This document shows positions 15,631 through 49,140 of a DNA stretch of 52,816 nucleotides, piece after piece. The first letter of the stretch is position 1. Each line of letters begins with the position of its first letter. The stretch comes from a virus: IMG/VR virus record IMGVR_UViG_3300032284_000652, positions 1-52,816 of that record; one strand, given 5' to 3'. The notes beneath the pieces are model-generated. The model was not told the DNA's origin. It ran no database searches and worked only from the letters and a program-made list of their open reading frames with translations. The translations under genes were made by a program, and so were the position numbers.

Positions 15631-16312
15631 GCGTGACTTCAACGAAATCCCCGATGGATATGTATACAGGGAGGGGGAGCATTCTGACCTGATCCAGTTT
15701 GGAAACAACAGAAGGTATACCCACCATCCAGTCGCGGCTTCGGCTGAATGCTTGGAAATGAAAGTTTTCCGCCATCTGAACGCAGAGGAAATTATTTACA
15801 TAATCCGAAAGTATGCGGGCACGAGAAGCATGGTCAATTTCTTTGACCGCATGCTTCAAGACAATCGAACCAGCTACGAATACGTCAGAGGCATTCAGGT
15901 AAACTTGCAGAATGCCATAGAAATGGTTGGCCTGCGTGGTGGGTGCTCCTGCGAGACCTGCGACAAGATGGCCTACAATCCGGTTCCTGACGTTGCCGGG
16001 AACTGGGAGGAGGTCGATGCCTTTTTCCAGAGGGACAAGTCCGACGCCGCAATCGGCAGGCTGTGCTACCCAAAATTTCATGGCAGGCTGCCGATCCTGT
16101 GCGACGACTGCATGAGCATTGTCCGGCAGGTGCAGATCGAGAACCCCCACCTTCCCGTGTGGAGAAACGGCGACGTGCTGGCGCTCAAGCAGCTTTTGAG
16201 GCTTGTTGAGGTTGCCGCTGGCATCCCGCCAGAAAAACGCAAACGAAAGAAGCGCGCTCCAGAGCCGCGAAATCTGGCAGAAGTTTACTGGTCGAAAGGC
16301 ATTGGAACGTGA
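15617..16312 (+). CDS. hypothetical protein in an AT-richer segment
   Basis: 231 residues; ATG inside the end of the previous gene, preceded by GGAGAGCCTCA. The first half (15640-15960) uses many A/T-ending codons, unlike its neighbours, which suggests recent acquisition. Cys pairs (GCSCETCDK near residue 110, and LCDDCM near 165) may form a zinc site. The C-terminus is very basic (PPEKRKRKKRAPEPR), so nucleic-acid binding is plausible. Unassigned. Confidence 0.65.
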   Translation: MKLAERDFNEIPDGYVYREGEHSDLIQFGNNRRYTHHPVAASAECLEMKVFRHLNAEEIIYIIRKYAGTRSMVNFFDRMLQDNRTSYEYVRGIQVNLQNAIEMVGLRGGCSCETCDKMAYNPVPDVAGNWEEVDAFFQRDKSDAAIGRLCYPKFHGRLPILCDDCMSIVRQVQIENPHLPVWRNGDVLALKQLLRLVEVAAGIPPEKRKRKKRAPEPRNLAEVYWSKGIGT

Positions 16313-16749
16313 CCTACATCAGCTTCAAGGTTCCCGGCGAGCCCCGTGGCAAGGGCCGCCCCCGCGCCACCCGCATGGGCAACAACATCCGCCTGTACAC
16401 CGACGCCAAGACCTCCGCTTACGAGAACCTCGTCGCCCTTGCCTGCCAGCAGGCCATGCAGGCCGCTGGGCAGCCGCCCCTGACCGGCGCGCTGGCTCTC
16501 AGCGTGATCGCCTACGTCGGCATCCCCAAGTCCACCTCCAAGGCCAAACGGGAGCAGGCGGCCGAGGGATACTTGCGGCCGACCAAGAAGCCGGACCTCG
16601 ATAACATCATCAAGGCCGTCCTCGATGGCCTGAACGGCGTGGCGTTTGTGGACGACGTTCAGGTCGTCAATATTTCGGCAAAAAAACTGTATGCGATTGC
16701 TGAGCCCTACTTGCTGGTCAGCGTGGCGGCTCTGGAGACGCAAGCATGA
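16309..16749 (+). CDS. rusA: RusA-type Holliday junction resolvase
   Basis: 146 residues from a GTG in a GTGA overlap. Homodimeric Mg-dependent endonuclease that resolves four-way junctions. Family signs: N-terminal VPGEPRGKGRPRAT, the central P-x-K-x-x-x-LDN acidic motif KKPDLDNIIKAVLDGLNG (about residue 94) with the downstream DD of AFVDDVQVV, and the closing AKKLYAIAEPYL strand. Length is normal. It lies between an unknown basic protein and the methyltransferase, in the replication/recombination block. Confidence 0.9.
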   Translation: MTYISFKVPGEPRGKGRPRATRMGNNIRLYTDAKTSAYENLVALACQQAMQAAGQPPLTGALALSVIAYVGIPKSTSKAKREQAAEGYLRPTKKPDLDNIIKAVLDGLNGVAFVDDVQVVNISAKKLYAIAEPYLLVSVAALETQA

Positions 16750-17945
16750 GCGCCTACTACAACGAATTTGATCCTAACGCCGCAGCATGGTTGCGGGAAC
16801 TTATCAAGCAGGGACTGATCGCGCCCGGCGATGTTGACACGCGATCCATCAAGGAAGTGAACCCAGATGACCTCAAGGCGTACACGCAATGCCATTTCTT
16901 CGCGGGGATCGGAGGATGGTCCTACGCTCTTCGACTGGCTGGATGGCCAGATGATAGGCCCGTCTGGACAGGAAGCTGCCCCTGCCAGCCCTTCAGCGCC
17001 GCTGGCGCTGGCAAGCAAGCCGGATTCAATGACGAGCGGCACCTCTGGCCGACCTTCTTGGGCCTCATCCAAGAGCGCCGCCCTTCAATCGTTTTTGGAG
17101 AGCAGGTTGCGAGCAAGGACGGACTCAATTGGCTCGATCTTGTACAGGCTGACTTGGAAGCATCGAATTACGCCGTTGGGGCGGCAGATTTGTGCGCTGC
17201 GGGCGTCGGCGCGCCGCACATCCGTCAGCGACTCTGGTTTGTTGGGCTGGGGGACGCCGACGACGCGCGATTGGAAGGACGACGGGAAGTACGTGCGCGA
17301 CCCGAAGAAGGGCAACAGCCTTTCGGTTCTGCCTTATGCCGCCGGATTGGCCGCTTGGCCGACGCCGACGAAGAGCAACGGGGATGGCGGCCAGCACATG
17401 ACCGGATCATCGACGGGGCGGCGTCCGAACGGCACCAAGGAGACGGTGAGCTTGCCGGGGGTGGCGGACTTGGCTGGCTGGCCGATGGAGGGATGGAAGA
17501 GTCCGAAAGCATCCGAGGGGATGGGGCGATACAGCCAATTCAAAGGTATTCGCTATCCGGGGCTGTGGATGCAGACGGAGTTTGCGGGCTGGGGGACCCC
17601 TTTAACCAACCACGCAAACGGGGAACCGGAAGCCTTTTTGGAGCGGAAGCGCAAAAGTATGGCGAACGGGTCGCAGTCGATGGGCGTTTGCCTGAGCGAC
17701 CTGAACATGCAGGTGAAAGCATGGGTGCCGCCCCAACCGGCCCGACTAACGGCCTCTGGCGAGATGCTGACTGGCTCTTCTGCCGGGATGGAAAGTGGCG
17801 GCCAGTTGAACCCGGCACATTCCCGCTGGCTCATGGGTTACCCGCCAGAGTGGGACGACTGCGCGGTTACGGCAATGCCATTGTCCCGCAAGTCGCGGAA
17901 GTCTTCATCCGCACAGTGATGGAACATCAACATGACCTGCCCTGA
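16746..17945 (+). CDS. DNA (cytosine-5) methyltransferase
   Basis: 399 residues, ATG overlapping the RusA stop. Transfers methyl from SAM to C5 of cytosine in DNA. Motif [18 protein letters not shown] (about residue 50), motif IV with catalytic Cys [12 protein letters not shown] (about 76), a motif VI variant FGEQV (Gln in place of the usual Asn), motif VIII QRLWFVG, and C-terminal motif [16 protein letters not shown] are present. The middle (residues ~165-330) is the variable target-recognition part with the DADD/ADADEE patches usual in phage enzymes. No restriction partner is visible, so it probably protects phage DNA or alters host methylation. A second long frame overlaps almost all of it. 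Confidence 0.9.
16867..17919 (+). CDS. overlapping +1-frame protein inside the methyltransferase gene
   Basis: 350 residues, with AAGGAAG nine bases before its ATG. It lies wholly within the methyltransferase gene yet reads like a natural protein: [57 protein letters not shown] and a C-terminal [15 protein letters not shown] recall these same phrases from proteins annotated in many unrelated phages, often next to or over a cytosine methyltransferase. Function unknown. The open frame may be passively conserved through the methyltransferase, so expression is unproven; a dual-coding locus is the main alternative. Confidence 0.5.
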
Positions 17946-18330
17946 CTGCGCCAAGCTCAAGGCCCGCATCGCCGTCCTCGAAGGCAATCTGAATGACCTG
18001 ACGCTCATGCTTACCGACCCCGCGGCGGACCAGCGCCGGGCGCTGAAGGAGACCTACGGCCTGCAGCCCAACGAGGCATCGATCCTGCTGGCGCTGTACC
18101 GGGCCCATGGGCGGTGCGTGGGCCATGAGAACCTGCTGCAGGCCCGGATCAAGGACTACGCCAAACACGGCGGCACCGACGCCGTCCTGAAGGTCTACAT
18201 CGTCCGCATCCGCAAGAAGGTCGGCAAGGGGGCCGTCACCAACAACTGGGGCGTCGGCTACTCGATCACGCCGGAGGGCATCACGAAGGTGAAAGCCGCC
18301 TTGACGGCCCACGGGCTCGCGTCAGAATGA
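17932..18330 (+). CDS. winged-helix transcription regulator (PhoB/CtrA-type DNA-binding domain)
   Basis: 132 residues. N-terminal [15 protein letters not shown] with a CxxC and a short coiled coil, then a winged helix: GLQPNEASILLALYRAHG, the recognition-helix region DAVLKVYIVRIRKKVG and the wing NNWGVGYSITPEG. There is no phosphoreceiver domain. The fold matches the output domain of OmpR/PhoB regulators such as CtrA. With the GcrA homologue it gives the phage two regulators of the alphaproteobacterial cell-cycle type. Likely target is phage or host promoters. Confidence 0.75.
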   Translation: MTCPDCAKLKARIAVLEGNLNDLTLMLTDPAADQRRALKETYGLQPNEASILLALYRAHGRCVGHENLLQARIKDYAKHGGTDAVLKVYIVRIRKKVGKGAVTNNWGVGYSITPEGITKVKAALTAHGLASE

Positions 18331-27549: not shown

Positions 27550-29856
27550 ATGGCCATGACGCCGGGACTTATGCCGAACCTTCGCCAAGGCGGTCTCGGC
27601 GGCGCTGAGCCCATGAACGACGATGACGTGCAGGTCGAAGTTGCCGACAGCGATGGCGACGTTCCAAACATTGATGAAGACGGAAACGTCATCCAGATTG
27701 AGCACGATGACGGCTCGATCACCATTTCCCTCGACGGCAAGCCCCTGAACGAGCCGGAAGACCGCGCCCCCAAGGGTTGGTTTGACAATCTGGTGGAGGA
27801 CATCGACCAGAACGAACTGACCCGGATCGCCGAAGACCTGTTGCGCGGCATTGATGAGGACATCAATAGCCGCCGGGACTGGATCGAGGAGCGCGCTCTG
27901 GGCGTGAAACTCCTTGGCCTGAAGATCGAGATACCGGGGCTTCAAGGGGCCGCTGACGGGGCTCCGGTGGAGGGCATGAGCAAGGTCCGTCACCCGCTTC
28001 TGCTGGAGGCCGTGCTGCGGTTTCAGGCCAACGCCCGGTCGGAGCTTCTGCCGACTGACGGCCCCCTGAAGATCAGGAACGACAACAACCGCGCCGAGCT
28101 TAACGAGGACCAGCTTGCCAACGCGCTGGAGCGGGACCTGAACCACTACCTGACGTCCGTGGCGACCGAGTATTACCCCGACACGGATCGCATGCTGTTG
28201 ATGGTAGGTTTCGGGGGGACGCAGTTCAAGAAAGTCTATTTCTGCCCGCTGCGGAACCGGCCTGTCAGTGAGACGGTAGATGCCGACGATCTGATCGTCA
28301 ACAACAACGCCACCGATCTGGCCAACTCCAAGCGGATCACTCATCGCATCATGATGCGCCCGTCCGTGGTCAAGCGCATGCAGATACTGGGCGTCTATCA
28401 TGACGTCGATCTGGGATCAGCGCGGGCTCCAAAGCTGGACAGTCTGCAGCGGGAAGAGCGGACCCAGCAGGGCGTCTCGGCTGAAAGCAAGCCCGACGAC
28501 TACGACCGCGAGATTTATGAGTGTTACTGCGAACTCGACATCAAGGGCTACGAGCACAAGTGGAAGGGCAAGGCCTCCGGTCTCGAAATTCCCTACCGCG
28601 TGACCATCGACGTCTCGTCCCGCAAGGTCCTGTCCATCGTCCGCAACTACAACGACACCGAGCGCCTGCCGGAGCCCCGTGAGACGTTTGTGGACTACAC
28701 CTTCGTGCCGGGCATGGGCTTCTACGGCATCGGCCTGCTGCATATCCTCGGCAACACCACCAATGCCATCACGGCGGCGTGGCGGGAGATGCTGGACAAC
28801 GGCATGTACGCCAACTTCCCCGGCTTCCTGATGGCAAAGTCCGGCTCTCGCCAGAACACCAACATCTTCCGCGTACCCCCCGGCGGTGGCGCACAGATCG
28901 ACACAGGCGGCCTTCCCATCAATCAGGCCATCATGCCCCTGCCGTACCAGACGGGCGGCATGGGGCCGCTCATGCAGTTGACTGACAGCATGGCCCAGAC
29001 GGGCATGCGGATCGGCGGCACGTCGGAGCAGCAGGTCGGCGAGGGCCGTGCAGAGGCCCCTGTGGGCACGACGCTCGCCATGATTGAGCAGGCGACCAAG
29101 GTCATGAATGCCGTCCACAAGCGCCTCCACGCCGCTCAGGCGCGGGAGTTCAAGCTGCTGGTTGAGGTGTTCAAGGAGCACCCGGAGGCGTTCTGGCAGC
29201 GCAACGGGCCGTCCAAGACCCAGTGGGACGAGGACACGTTCCTGAAGGCGTTGGAGGACTGCGATCTGGTGCCGCAGGCGGACCCGAACACCGCCTCCCA
29301 TGGGCAGCGGGTCATGAAGATCATGGCGCTGAAGCAGCTTCAGGGCGCAAACCCGTCCATGTACGACCCCATCGCCGTGGACCGGGCTGCGCTGCAGGCC
29401 ATCGGCTGGAACAACCCCGAGCAGTTCCTTGTGCCGCAGGGTGCCCAGCAACAGCCGCCGCCTGAGCTTATCAAGATGCAGTCCGACGCCAAGGTCAACC
29501 AGCAGAAGGCCGACGCCGAGACCATGACGGCGCAGGCCAAGGCGAAGGAAGTGGACGCCAAGATACAGCAGGGCGCGTTCGCCCCCAAGCCCGCCGCTGG
29601 CGGCCTTGCCGGTAGCGAGCAGAAGCAGCCCGACCCTGCCGCTCAGATGACCGCACAGGCCAAGTTGATGGACGCCCAGACCAAGGGTCAGCAGATACAG
29701 GTCCAGCACGCCACGGCGCAGATGGAGGACCAGAACCGCGATCTGGACCGCCAGTCCCGCGAGCGCGTCGAGATGCTGTCGCTGGCCAAGGACGTGGCGT
29801 TACACCCTGAAGCGGCCCCAGCCGTCCGGTCGGTCGAGAAGGAAAGCAAATCGTGA
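27550..29856 (+). CDS. portal protein
   Basis: 768 residues; ATG after AAAGGACGCCTGAA. Forms the dodecameric ring at the DNA-entry vertex. Layout fits podoviral portals: an acidic N-terminal tail (residues 1-90), stem/clip-type core with IDEDINSRRDWIEE, GFGGTQFKKVYFCPLRN, and VDYTFVPGMGFYGIGLLHIL, then a conserved helical region with GGTSEQQVGEGRAEAPVG, and a long Gln/Ala-rich coiled-coil barrel (residues ~630-768). The length is typical for portals with a C-terminal barrel. Directly follows the terminase pair. Confidence 0.9.
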   Translation: MAMTPGLMPNLRQGGLGGAEPMNDDDVQVEVADSDGDVPNIDEDGNVIQIEHDDGSITISLDGKPLNEPEDRAPKGWFDNLVEDIDQNELTRIAEDLLRGIDEDINSRRDWIEERALGVKLLGLKIEIPGLQGAADGAPVEGMSKVRHPLLLEAVLRFQANARSELLPTDGPLKIRNDNNRAELNEDQLANALERDLNHYLTSVATEYYPDTDRMLLMVGFGGTQFKKVYFCPLRNRPVSETVDADDLIVNNNATDLANSKRITHRIMMRPSVVKRMQILGVYHDVDLGSARAPKLDSLQREERTQQGVSAESKPDDYDREIYECYCELDIKGYEHKWKGKASGLEIPYRVTIDVSSRKVLSIVRNYNDTERLPEPRETFVDYTFVPGMGFYGIGLLHILGNTTNAITAAWREMLDNGMYANFPGFLMAKSGSRQNTNIFRVPPGGGAQIDTGGLPINQAIMPLPYQTGGMGPLMQLTDSMAQTGMRIGGTSEQQVGEGRAEAPVGTTLAMIEQATKVMNAVHKRLHAAQAREFKLLVEVFKEHPEAFWQRNGPSKTQWDEDTFLKALEDCDLVPQADPNTASHGQRVMKIMALKQLQGANPSMYDPIAVDRAALQAIGWNNPEQFLVPQGAQQQPPPELIKMQSDAKVNQQKADAETMTAQAKAKEVDAKIQQGAFAPKPAAGGLAGSEQKQPDPAAQMTAQAKLMDAQTKGQQIQVQHATAQMEDQNRDLDRQSRERVEMLSLAKDVALHPEAAPAVRSVEKESKS

Positions 29857-31433
29857 CGACATCCGCCAACCAGCGCATGCAAAAGGTCATCGATCTGGCG
29901 CGCGAAATCGCCGCCAAGACGTCCCCCGGCGTGGAAGACGTGCCCATGCCCAAGCCCGGCCAGCCGATCCCTGTGCTGCACTATCCAGTGCCGGGGTTTG
30001 CGAACGGCGGAAAGACCGTGCGGCGGGCGGTTATGGCGGCTAAAGGCAAGGGCGGCTCAACCGGAAAGCAAAACCTACCCATGGATGCGCAAAGCCGTGA
30101 AGAGCGCGCCGCTCAAATGGGTTTTTCGGGTCCGTGGTATCACGGCTCCGCTCGATTGGATCGGGTTGTTTCAGGCGACAAAATTGACCCCAAGCGCGCC
30201 ACGTCCGGTCCTATGCCTTTCTTCACCGACAATCCGGCCATGGCTTCCAATTACGCTACAGGAAAACAGGACACATCGCTGTCGGCTGGCGACACGGGTG
30301 AGACGGCAAATTATTTTACGGTTCATCCGAAAGACTTGGGTTTTTCAGGAAGGAATCCCATTCCGGTTGAAAAAAGCTGGCATTATCTGCCGCCGCACAT
30401 CAGATCACAAATCGCTCAAAGCGCCATGCGGGTGGGTTATCAAGATCAAGATGCCCATGACGGCGACCTTGTCTTGCATCCTGACTTTGGCTCTATCTCA
30501 TCGCCTGATCATTACGCCCATGTGCTAAAGGAACATCGGGGCAACCATTTGGCCGCTTTGCGCGATCTTTGGGTGGATTCGGGCACCCTGCACGGAGAAG
30601 AAGACAAGTTGGCCCACATCTACCGGCTGGCAGGGTATCCGCACCCCATCAGCCAAGAAACAGCCCCATGGGTTGGAGCGAGCGGCGTTCTTCCAGCCAA
30701 GCTCCAAATGAAAAACCCGCTCCGCACATCAGATACAGATTATTTGCATAAAACAGTCATTCCGCATTTGGAGCGCACGTTCAAAAATGATCGGACGCGC
30801 AAATCGCAATATGGCGCTGACATGTGGGATAAAAACCACCGCTACACACCCAAGGAATGGACCGAAACCTTGAAACAAGAATTGGCCAGAGGTGCCAATC
30901 CCATGGTTTTCACTTCCATCCCCGATAAAGTGACCAACGCGCTTCGTGCGCTGGGACATGACGGCATCATAGATACGGGCGGAAAACAGGGGGGCGAAGG
31001 CCACACGGTAGCCATTCCATTTGATGCCCATCAGGTTAGATCGCAATTCGCCAAGTTCGACCCTAAGGATGAGGGGAAATCCGGCTTTAGCAAGGCGGGC
31101 GGCGGATCGGCAGATTGGGATTCGTTGCTTCGACGGCAAAGAGACGTCGAGGGGCTTAAGGCGGCGATCAGGGACCCCCAAACGGGGGAAATCCATTATG
31201 GCCACACTCACAAATCCGTAATGGACGCAGCCTCTCGGCATCCTGATGCGGGTAAATGGAGCAGACTGTCGTGGGAATGGGGAAGTGATGATTCCCCTCA
31301 CGTTGGTTTTGTAACCCAAGAAGGTGATTTTCTGACTCGCGATGAAGCTAATGACAAATTAAAATTTGGTTACACCGCCGAAGATGCGCGCGATTTCCTT
31401 CGTAGAAAAAGGAACAATGGCGGGACGGTTTAA
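29853..31433 (+). CDS. virion-associated ADP-ribosyltransferase-like protein
   Basis: 526 residues from GTG overlapping the portal stop. N-terminus has PVPGFANGGKTVRRAV and GKGGSTGKQ, the Gly-Gly motif found in other virion proteins here. An ART-like fold follows: WYHGSARLD (about residue 95), FFTDNPAMASNYATG (about 123) and, far downstream, LGHDGIID with GHTVAIPFDAHQVRS (about 368-400). These match the H-x-S, the (F)FT-x-xxxxAxxYA and the closing strand of polyvalent-type phage ARTs. A second Gly-Gly motif (FSKAGGGSADW) leads to a small C-terminal domain. AT-richer than neighbours. I infer that it is packaged and injected to modify a host target, as T4 Alt is. No target can be read from sequence. 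Confidence 0.65.
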   Translation: MTTSANQRMQKVIDLAREIAAKTSPGVEDVPMPKPGQPIPVLHYPVPGFANGGKTVRRAVMAAKGKGGSTGKQNLPMDAQSREERAAQMGFSGPWYHGSARLDRVVSGDKIDPKRATSGPMPFFTDNPAMASNYATGKQDTSLSAGDTGETANYFTVHPKDLGFSGRNPIPVEKSWHYLPPHIRSQIAQSAMRVGYQDQDAHDGDLVLHPDFGSISSPDHYAHVLKEHRGNHLAALRDLWVDSGTLHGEEDKLAHIYRLAGYPHPISQETAPWVGASGVLPAKLQMKNPLRTSDTDYLHKTVIPHLERTFKNDRTRKSQYGADMWDKNHRYTPKEWTETLKQELARGANPMVFTSIPDKVTNALRALGHDGIIDTGGKQGGEGHTVAIPFDAHQVRSQFAKFDPKDEGKSGFSKAGGGSADWDSLLRRQRDVEGLKAAIRDPQTGEIHYGHTHKSVMDAASRHPDAGKWSRLSWEWGSDDSPHVGFVTQEGDFLTRDEANDKLKFGYTAEDARDFLRRKRNNGGTV

Positions 31434-46950: not shown

Positions 46951-49140
46951 ATGCCACTGACCAAGGGCAAATCCCAGAAGACCATCAGCCACAACATCAG
47001 CGAGATGATCGACGCTGGACATCCGAGGGATGTTGCCATCGCCGCTGCGCTGAACACGGCGCGGAAGGTGGCGAAGGCGGGCGGGGGTCCGACAGAGGCG
47101 CAGAAAGAGGCCGGAAACTACAAGAAGCATCACATGCGGTTTCAGGGCCTCGACATTGCCATTGAAAATCTCAAGGGCTCTACGCGCAGCGGCGTCGGCC
47201 CCACAGGTGCGCGGTGGTCTGTCGTCATGCCCGCCGACTATGGCTACATCAAACGGACGGAGGGCGCAGACGGCGACCATGTCGATTGCTATGTCGGACC
47301 TCACTCCGATAGCAGAGAGATTTACGTCGTTGATCAGATCGACCCCCGCACCAAAAAGTTTGACGAGCACAAATGCTTCCTCGGCTTCAAGTCGGAGGCT
47401 GACGCCGTCAAGACCTACGACCGTGGGTTCAGCGACGGCAGCGGCCCCCGCCGCCGCGCTTCTGTCCACACTATGACAATGCAGGAATTCAAGCATTGGT
47501 TGGAGTTCGGCGACACGACAAAGCGCGTAGCCCGCGCCTCCGGCGGCGGCCTCTACGCCAACATCCACGCCAAGCAGGAGCGCATCGCCCACGGCTCCAA
47601 GGAGCACATGCGCAAGCCCGGTGCGGCGGGAGCGCCCACGGCGGCGGCCTTCAAGCAGTCGGCGCGGACGGCCAAGGCGGGTGGCGGTGAGACTGAGAAC
47701 AAGAACTACGGCTCTCACAAGGGCCGTCCGTTCTGGTCTGGGATTTATGACACGCGAGATGGATTCATCCGAGAGACCCACCCTTATGAAAGGGCGGAAA
47801 AAGTAGACTTCCATCATTCGTACTATGTCAGCCCGCAGTCTCAGGATGCCATGCGCCATGGCGAGGCTGGGTTCTTCTGGATGGAACCCGACAAGTCCAT
47901 TCAAACGCATTGGCGCGATGGCGAAGCCCCTCCGCACATTGTCCGCGCTATCAAAGCGCAGCTTGATCCCGTCATCCAGAACGCGGGTGGCGGCGATGTG
48001 GAAGGTCGCTACCTAAATGCTCAAGGACTTTACAGCGCCCGCGCCTCCGGCGGAGGCCTCTACGCCAACATCCACGCCAAGCAGCAGCGCATCGCCCACG
48101 GCTCCAAGGAGCACATGCGCAAGCCCGGCAGCCCCGGCGCTCCCACGGCGGCGGCCTTCAAGCAGTCCGAACGCACCGCCCGCGCTGACGGCGGCCCCGT
48201 CCTCACGCCCCACGGCACGGTGGAGGACCACGGCCGCACCATGCCGGAGACGGCCCACACGCTGGCCCTGCAGCATCAGGCGCTGCTGGAGGGCCGCAAG
48301 GCGGCGGTCCTGTACCCCCACAATGGCCACAAGCCGCCCCACCCCGCCCACGGGCAGGGCGTGACCAGCATCAAGGACGGCATTGTCCACTACAACCCGG
48401 CCGTGCTGACCGAGCATCAAATCCACGCGGCGGCCGACGCTGACCGGCTCAACGAAATTCTGGGCCTCGGGCCGTTCAACAAGAACGACGTCTGGCAGCG
48501 GGTGCAAAACGGGGAGCGGTCTGTGGGCGTGGTGTCGCGCGACAGGCACGGCCATGAGGCATCGGCGGCGTTGGGCACTGAGGAGACCGCCCCCGCCCAA
48601 ATGGAAGCCCTGCAGGCCCACATGCCCGAGGGCGGCAGCGTCAGCATCGAGCACCCCATGGAAACTCTACAAGGACGCCAAGCGCACGCCTCCGGCGGCC
48701 AAGTGACCGAGAAGCTGCACACGGGCCCGATTTACTCCCCGGTGGCCGGGCGCACCGATCACCTGCCCATGCACGTCCCCAGCGGCTCCTATGTGATCCC
48801 GGCGGACATCATCAGCGCCATGGGCGAGGGCAACACCATGGCGGGCTTCAAGCACATGCGGCGCATGTTCTCGGGCGCTCCCTACGGCGGCGACGGGGAC
48901 GTGCCCTACGGCGGCTCCGGCGGGCCCTACAACGAGCCCCTGAAGGCGAGCGGCGGCTCGACCCAGTCGGTGCCCATCGTGGCCGCTGGCGGTGAATATG
49001 TGTTGGCACCCCATGAGGTGAAATATGCGGGCGGCGGCGACCTTGACGCTGGCCACCGCGTTCTGGATGACTTCGTGAAGCGTTATCGTTCCCAGACCAT
49101 CAAGACGTTGTCTAAACTTCCGGGGCCAAAGCGCGATTAA
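46951..49140 (+). CDS. multidomain polyvalent-type virion protein with inorganic-pyrophosphatase-like domain
   Basis: 729 residues; ATG after AAGGGGCTCACC. Order: KAGGG motif; a pyrophosphatase-like domain (residues ~55-190) with PADYGYIKRTEGADGDHVDC, VYVVDQ-type strand and FDEHKCFLGFKS; a linker copy RASGGGLYANIHAKQ and HMRKPGAAGAPTAAAFKQS (~194-250); a foreign-looking domain (~250-360); a second linker copy (~364-415); a further domain with HPAHGQGVTSIKDGIVHYNP (~415-575); and a conserved end with SPVAGRTDHLPMHVPSGSYV and VPIVAAGGEYVLAPHEVKYA. Polyvalent proteins are injected with phage DNA to counter host defences. That role is inferred here from domains and Gly-Gly motifs. Confidence 0.7.
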   Translation: MPLTKGKSQKTISHNISEMIDAGHPRDVAIAAALNTARKVAKAGGGPTEAQKEAGNYKKHHMRFQGLDIAIENLKGSTRSGVGPTGARWSVVMPADYGYIKRTEGADGDHVDCYVGPHSDSREIYVVDQIDPRTKKFDEHKCFLGFKSEADAVKTYDRGFSDGSGPRRRASVHTMTMQEFKHWLEFGDTTKRVARASGGGLYANIHAKQERIAHGSKEHMRKPGAAGAPTAAAFKQSARTAKAGGGETENKNYGSHKGRPFWSGIYDTRDGFIRETHPYERAEKVDFHHSYYVSPQSQDAMRHGEAGFFWMEPDKSIQTHWRDGEAPPHIVRAIKAQLDPVIQNAGGGDVEGRYLNAQGLYSARASGGGLYANIHAKQQRIAHGSKEHMRKPGSPGAPTAAAFKQSERTARADGGPVLTPHGTVEDHGRTMPETAHTLALQHQALLEGRKAAVLYPHNGHKPPHPAHGQGVTSIKDGIVHYNPAVLTEHQIHAAADADRLNEILGLGPFNKNDVWQRVQNGERSVGVVSRDRHGHEASAALGTEETAPAQMEALQAHMPEGGSVSIEHPMETLQGRQAHASGGQVTEKLHTGPIYSPVAGRTDHLPMHVPSGSYVIPADIISAMGEGNTMAGFKHMRRMFSGAPYGGDGDVPYGGSGGPYNEPLKASGGSTQSVPIVAAGGEYVLAPHEVKYAGGGDLDAGHRVLDDFVKRYRSQTIKTLSKLPGPKRD
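47531..48192 (+). repeat. two direct copies (~155 bp each) of a linker cassette
   Basis: Copies at about 47531-47690 and 48038-48192 both encode ASGGGLYANIHAKQ(E/Q)RIAH followed by GSKEHMRKPG and TAAAFKQS. They flank a ~345-base segment of different composition. The linker itself resembles small stand-alone phage proteins I recall, so it may have been duplicated when the middle domain was acquired. Confidence 0.8.

Follow-up and report, generated by a model that had tools for sequence, protein, structure and literature searches.

The virus record IMGVR_UViG_3300032284_000652, which we analysed over its whole length of 52.8 kb (the window), carries on one strand two open reading frames (ORFs) that overlap over ∼1 kb. 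The first one, alpha, matches the families PF00145 (E 2.9e-13) and phrog_363 (E 1.3e-85) and encodes the catalytic part of a C5-cytosine DNA methyltransferase. The second one, beta, begins ∼40 codons into alpha, is read one base on (+1) and matches phrog_1008 (E 2e-29) and phrog_31772 (E 1.6e-33). An earlier note, made from the sequence of the window alone, had suggested that beta is a second conserved protein encoded within the methyltransferase gene. The coordinates and lengths of both frames are exactly as given there (Table 1), and the phrases of beta that it singled out, among them TPTTRDWKD, fall in conserved stretches of the relatives. In the following we show that both frames are conserved and under selection and that the double coding is no artefact but an ancient feature found widely among phages.

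The length of beta was dropped as evidence, because longer spurious ORFs are present in the same GC-rich window, namely unrelated antisense ORFs of 430–623 codons. A tblastn search with beta retrieved 215 phage records, and nearly all of the matches listed lie under a gene annotated as a DNA methyltransferase, where the annotation follows the other frame. As loci chosen through beta are a biased sample, 80 loci were fetched again, this time with the alpha frame as the only query. Every one of the 76 complete loci of this set has a +1 frame that is open over 75% of alpha or more; the +2 frame of the same loci contains 16.6 stops on average. When phage, plasmid, genome and E. coli prophage loci are added to the alpha-fetched loci, a single +1 ORF covering the beta profile is found in 228 of 228 complete alpha loci, whose GC content goes down to 48%. 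Stops in the +1 frame next to an intact methyltransferase, which according to the earlier note would speak against a second protein, were looked for and are absent from all of these loci. Four other loci (L093, L190, L200, L221) have a stop inside the alpha ORF while the beta ORF is open, and these could be pseudogenes, sequencing errors or real.

One could argue that the +1 frame is merely a non-coding shadow that is kept open by the GC content and by the codon constraint of alpha. The many long spurious ORFs of the window would fit this explanation, and alpha shadowing by itself gives ∼150 bits, for which reason we rejected BLAST similarity alone as proof of beta and used shuffles that preserve the alpha protein and the alpha codon usage instead. 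Among the low-GC members (47–52%) only 0–0.4% of 2000 shuffles reach the observed open length. A beta profile that was trained on one set of loci and tested on 57 others, training and test loci being related, scores the real sequences with 391 bits on average as compared to 150 bits for alpha-preserving codon shuffles, and the real +1 frame lies above all 20 of its own shuffles in each of the 57 test loci. As alpha is held identical in the shuffles, the excess in the beta score is not due to alpha shadowing. In addition, the frame is open at 47–50% GC, it is never broken in the 228 loci, and changes that are synonymous in beta are favoured in the middle of the gene (see below). The shadow explanation is thus already contradicted and can hardly be correct; beta is confirmed as a second protein under selection.

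The substitutions in close relatives indicate which frame is constrained where. The changes were classed by their effect in each frame and compared with random placement, using 45 non-overlapping pairs of relatives. The omega-like ratio before the overlap is 0.16 for alpha and 2.67 for beta, in the catalytic part 0.27 and 1.22, in the middle 1.34 and 0.56, and at the 3′ end 0.51 and 0.50. Thus, the constraint is split, with alpha constrained in the catalytic part, beta in the middle and both frames at the end. The codon-position counts agree with these ratios, as third positions hold 70% of the differences ahead of the overlap and 41% of those at the 3′ end (460 non-independent pairs). The comparison of both frames in relatives that the earlier note had proposed therefore reveals purifying selection in both frames depending on the region, whereas its expectation of constraint at nearly every base does not hold, since the constraint is instead divided by region between alpha and beta. 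The linker of alpha is a passenger of the beta coding. Near the 3′ end the DNA is up to 90% identical between the virus and phages of Xanthomonas, E. coli and Rhodobacter, which is as expected under double constraint. Taken together, dual coding by a second conserved +1 protein is backed by an unbiased sample, by the codon shuffles and by the codon-position and frame-specific substitution tests.

Table 1. Features of the alpha/beta locus and its direct neighbours (positions in the window)
Feature	Position	Strand	Basis
Alpha, C5-cytosine DNA methyltransferase catalytic subunit, 399 amino acids, frame 0	16746..17945	+	PF00145, phrog_363
Beta, 350 amino acids, +1 frame, motif IX and repeated GWxTP units	16867..17919	+	ATG 16867 to TGA 17919
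Shine-Dalgarno-like AAGGAAG ahead of beta start	16851..16857	+	Sequence; 9 nucleotides before ATG
Alpha motif I FAGIGG, cofactor binding	16899..16916	+	Kept in alpha alignment
Alpha motif IV PCQPFS with catalytic cysteine	16980..16997	+	P79, C80 invariant in alpha alignment
Alpha motif VI GEQV (ENV-like)	17097..17108	+	Invariant in alpha alignment
Alpha motif VIII region QRLWF	17226..17240	+	R160, R162 invariant in alpha alignment
Beta core, helix and two strands, residues 68–115	17068..17211	+	Predicted model, pLDDT 83–92
Middle region: unconserved disordered spacer in alpha, conserved GWxTP repeats in beta	17271..17735	+	pLDDT, substitutions
Beta motif IX	17800..17862	+	L314, W321, G324, P326, W329 invariant in 108 sequences
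Alpha C-terminal motif, overlaps end of beta motif IX in the other frame	17847..17900	+	R368, G370, L372, R373, G376–A378 invariant
RusA Holliday-junction resolvase just upstream, stop overlaps alpha start	16309..16749	+	PF05866 E 6.9e-35
Winged-helix Trans_reg_C protein overlapping alpha end	17932..18330	+	PF00486 E 9e-10

In an alignment of 85 relatives alpha contains the motifs I, IV, VI, VIII and X with invariant residues, motif X being GYGNAIVPQ at residues 374–382 with G376-N377-A378 invariant. Alpha thus has what defines the catalytic domain of PF00145 (motif I, motif IV with PCQ, motifs VI and VIII, and motif X in the same chain). Its catalytic part matches the monomeric C5 methyltransferase M.HhaI in sequence (E ∼1e-7) as well as in fold. 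However, the single chain of M.HhaI also includes the recognition domain and motif IX, which alpha is without; no motif IX was seen in alpha. The predicted model of alpha is confident for residues 1–178, except for the loop after motif IV, and for the C-terminal helix. Residues 180–330 are unconserved and predicted to be disordered, with a predicted local distance difference test (pLDDT) score of 32–50 in this spacer.

The part that is missing from alpha appears to be found in beta. Six beta residues are invariant in 108 sequences (G89 and the five listed in Table 1 for motif IX), and the motif with most of these residues resembles motif IX of the C5 methyltransferases. The +1 relation is kept at greater distance, in Paenibacillus and Lacticaseibacillus phages and in divergent alphaproteobacterial loci. 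In the Paenibacillus phages the +1 internal gene (“g55 internal gene”) has WGTP, WATP and WPTP units and LNPEWVECLMGFPIGWTD. Phage Shelly (gp55/gp56) shares this arrangement and matches phrog_1008 with E 8e-74, although it is a distant Firmicutes relative of 47% GC and its locus is annotated with no separate role given to the internal product. The actinophages are organized differently. In gp76 of Mycobacterium phage Rita, annotated as a DNA methylase, one frame matches both phrog_363 (E 4e-79) and the C-terminal half of phrog_1008 (E 2e-61), so that an alpha-type catalytic domain, beta-type TP repeats and the columns of beta motif IX are in frame with each other; the +1 frame of Rita retains only the N-terminal half of beta. 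Likewise, a WMMGLPxGWVT motif shares the alpha frame in Gordonia and Rhodococcus phages. At the level of sequence, motif IX of beta is shown to have its homologue in the C-terminal half of a single-chain methyltransferase. The distant relatives including the Rita fusion indicate that the C-terminal part of beta is a methyltransferase module and that the frame junction moved between lineages. Since alpha is without a recognition domain, it is beta, with its helix-hairpin core and its GWxTP repeats, which probably recognizes the target.

It could also be that beta is a real overlapping protein which was overprinted on alpha but does not belong to the methyltransferase; an anti-restriction or a regulatory function would be examples. 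Comparison of beta with Pfam, NCBIfam, PADLOC and the PDB sequences gave no match, and the lack of a Pfam family and of a structural match is in line with such a protein, as are the endonuclease domains in the beta frame of some relatives; furthermore, the +1 family may owe its annotated names to alpha. On the other hand, the strongest conservation of beta lies in exactly the motif that is missing from alpha and whose counterpart in the actinophage enzymes shares a frame with the catalytic domain, and nearly all beta loci found across the spread of genomes overlap an alpha. We therefore consider a function of beta outside the methyltransferase unlikely.

Several relatives carry additional sequences in the beta frame. 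A viral contig (L022, 2886–4451) and Komagataeibacter phage phiKX1 (L161, 2359–4015) have HNH endonuclease-like sequence just after motif IX, for which HNH families were matched in the case of L022, and the beta end resumes after the insert. The insert site is the most conserved DNA of the gene and is a plausible homing target. An Rfam search of the loci with endonuclease inserts found no intron, including group I introns. In a further locus (L065, 2178–3818) an endonuclease VII-like domain precedes LQNSLNERLKERL in the beta frame, and alpha is also open through this insert. Finally, in one genome (L278/L287, G429:C59, 1–1329) an ORF resembling beta, motif IX included, follows an apparent HNH-like domain. 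This genome has neither an alpha frame nor a PF00145 match, so that beta is possibly stand-alone or a remnant there.

Concerning the expression of beta, a +1-frame start codon preceded by a Shine-Dalgarno core at strict spacing is present in 81 of 108 loci, while 28.9 are expected from shuffles, and across relatives the starts so preceded cluster at a few codons. The site of the virus itself is not counted by this rule, as its AAGGAAG lies just outside the strict spacing; the “good ribosome site” of the earlier note is thus there, but it is only moderate. Judging from these start sites, beta may well be translated from an internal start. Alternatively, beta might be made as an alpha–beta fusion by a programmed +1 frameshift or by transcript slippage, so that motif IX would be part of one chain with alpha. 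That one chain can work is suggested by Rita, where the C-terminal half of beta is in frame with alpha, and the variable position of the beta start would also be compatible with a fusion. In addition, five metagenomic contigs (L030, L032, L067–L069) have a G run ∼280–310 nucleotides into alpha where alpha and beta change frame together, which may reflect a phase-variable tract or a sequencing error that recurs. Yet the nearly threefold enrichment of Shine-Dalgarno-preceded starts over the shuffles is not what a fusion would predict, a shift back would be needed as motif X is on alpha, and a shared slippery site was not noticed in the ordinary members, for which no systematic search was made. 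Production of beta as a fusion is therefore very unlikely in our opinion.

A C5 methyltransferase made of two polypeptides is known in M.EcoHK31I, which recognizes YGGCCR, and its small subunit is, as Lee, Kam and Shaw reportedly described in 1995, encoded within the large-subunit gene in an alternative frame. The motifs I–VIII and X of this enzyme are on the large subunit, motif IX is on the small subunit and the predicted target-recognition domain was assigned to the large subunit (PMC3404938). The same division, with motifs I–VIII and X on one chain and motif IX on the other, is found in alpha and beta. This likeness lies in the published motif division, and our claim is that alpha and beta work like M.EcoHK31I and not that they are members of its family. 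We had also sought M.EcoHK31I in E. coli by means of N15 gene 58; 63 genomes matched, and the six that were inspected were all prophage orphans. There are clear differences as well. M.EcoHK31I belongs to a restriction-modification system, whereas the gene described here is without a recognised restriction partner, and here beta is long (350 amino acids), overlaps alpha over ∼1 kb and is spread over phages of several phyla. In M.AquI, too, the catalytic motifs and motif IX are on separate chains (PMC3404938), but in the present case motif X is on alpha and the frames overlap almost completely.

From these results we consider it likely that the two overlapping frames encode a heterodimeric C5 methyltransferase of the M.EcoHK31I type. 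Some observations do not fit easily. The target-recognition domain of M.EcoHK31I is on its large subunit, where alpha has the disordered spacer. The model of beta is poor (mean pLDDT 58.6, confident only at residues 68–116), and a PDB fold search with this low-confidence model gave only chance matches. The beta start codon is without one fixed position across relatives. Lastly, the constraint on beta over the catalytic region is weak, yet its ratio is still under the background found before the overlap.

Thus, we suggest the following model. Alpha would be the catalytic subunit, with a disordered linker in place of the target-recognition domain and motif IX. Beta, from its own internal start, would supply motif IX and probably target recognition, and both would assemble into one enzyme as in M.EcoHK31I. 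This enzyme would methylate the phage genome, most likely to protect it from host restriction, and would do so with no recognised restriction partner. We infer the formation of the heterodimer, its DNA target and its anti-restriction role. The scan of the neighbouring proteins, which covered a subset of the ORFs, revealed no recognisable restriction enzyme, and alpha therefore looks like an orphan phage methyltransferase. Elsewhere in the window a SU10-type portal protein and two large phage proteins are encoded, one of 526 amino acids with a weak ART-PolyVal match (29853–31433) and one of 729 amino acids with a strong InPase match (46951–49140).

The distribution of the gene is best explained by a class that extends across phages of both Proteobacteria and Firmicutes and that underwent rearrangement in actinophages. 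On balance, this is probably a very large and ancient class of dual-coding phage C5 methyltransferases, with the motif IX and recognition subunit in the +1 frame over ∼1 kb and the alpha linker as a by-product, and because the junction moves, this part would be a separate subunit in some lineages and part of a single chain in others. We found no earlier description of overlapping or internal genes in phage methyltransferases in our partial coverage of the literature, and one may exist. Long same-strand overlaps that are conserved in such distant phages are rarely documented, and as the two frames appear to encode halves of one enzyme, the selective reason for their joint retention is testable.

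The overlap also has consequences for annotation, as gene finders and annotation usually give one of the two proteins, sometimes in the wrong frame, or neither. In Pseudomonas phage Riah (L164, 2515–3297) neither frame is annotated, and in Stenotrophomonas phage SOVA965 (L251, 2984–3484) the annotation of the cytosine methyltransferase is placed on the beta frame; both failures are caused by the overlap. Given the usual annotation of a single frame, many orphan phage methyltransferases probably lack a database entry for their recognition subunit. If this is true, alpha cloned alone would give a false negative for activity, and a specificity predicted from alpha would be meaningless.
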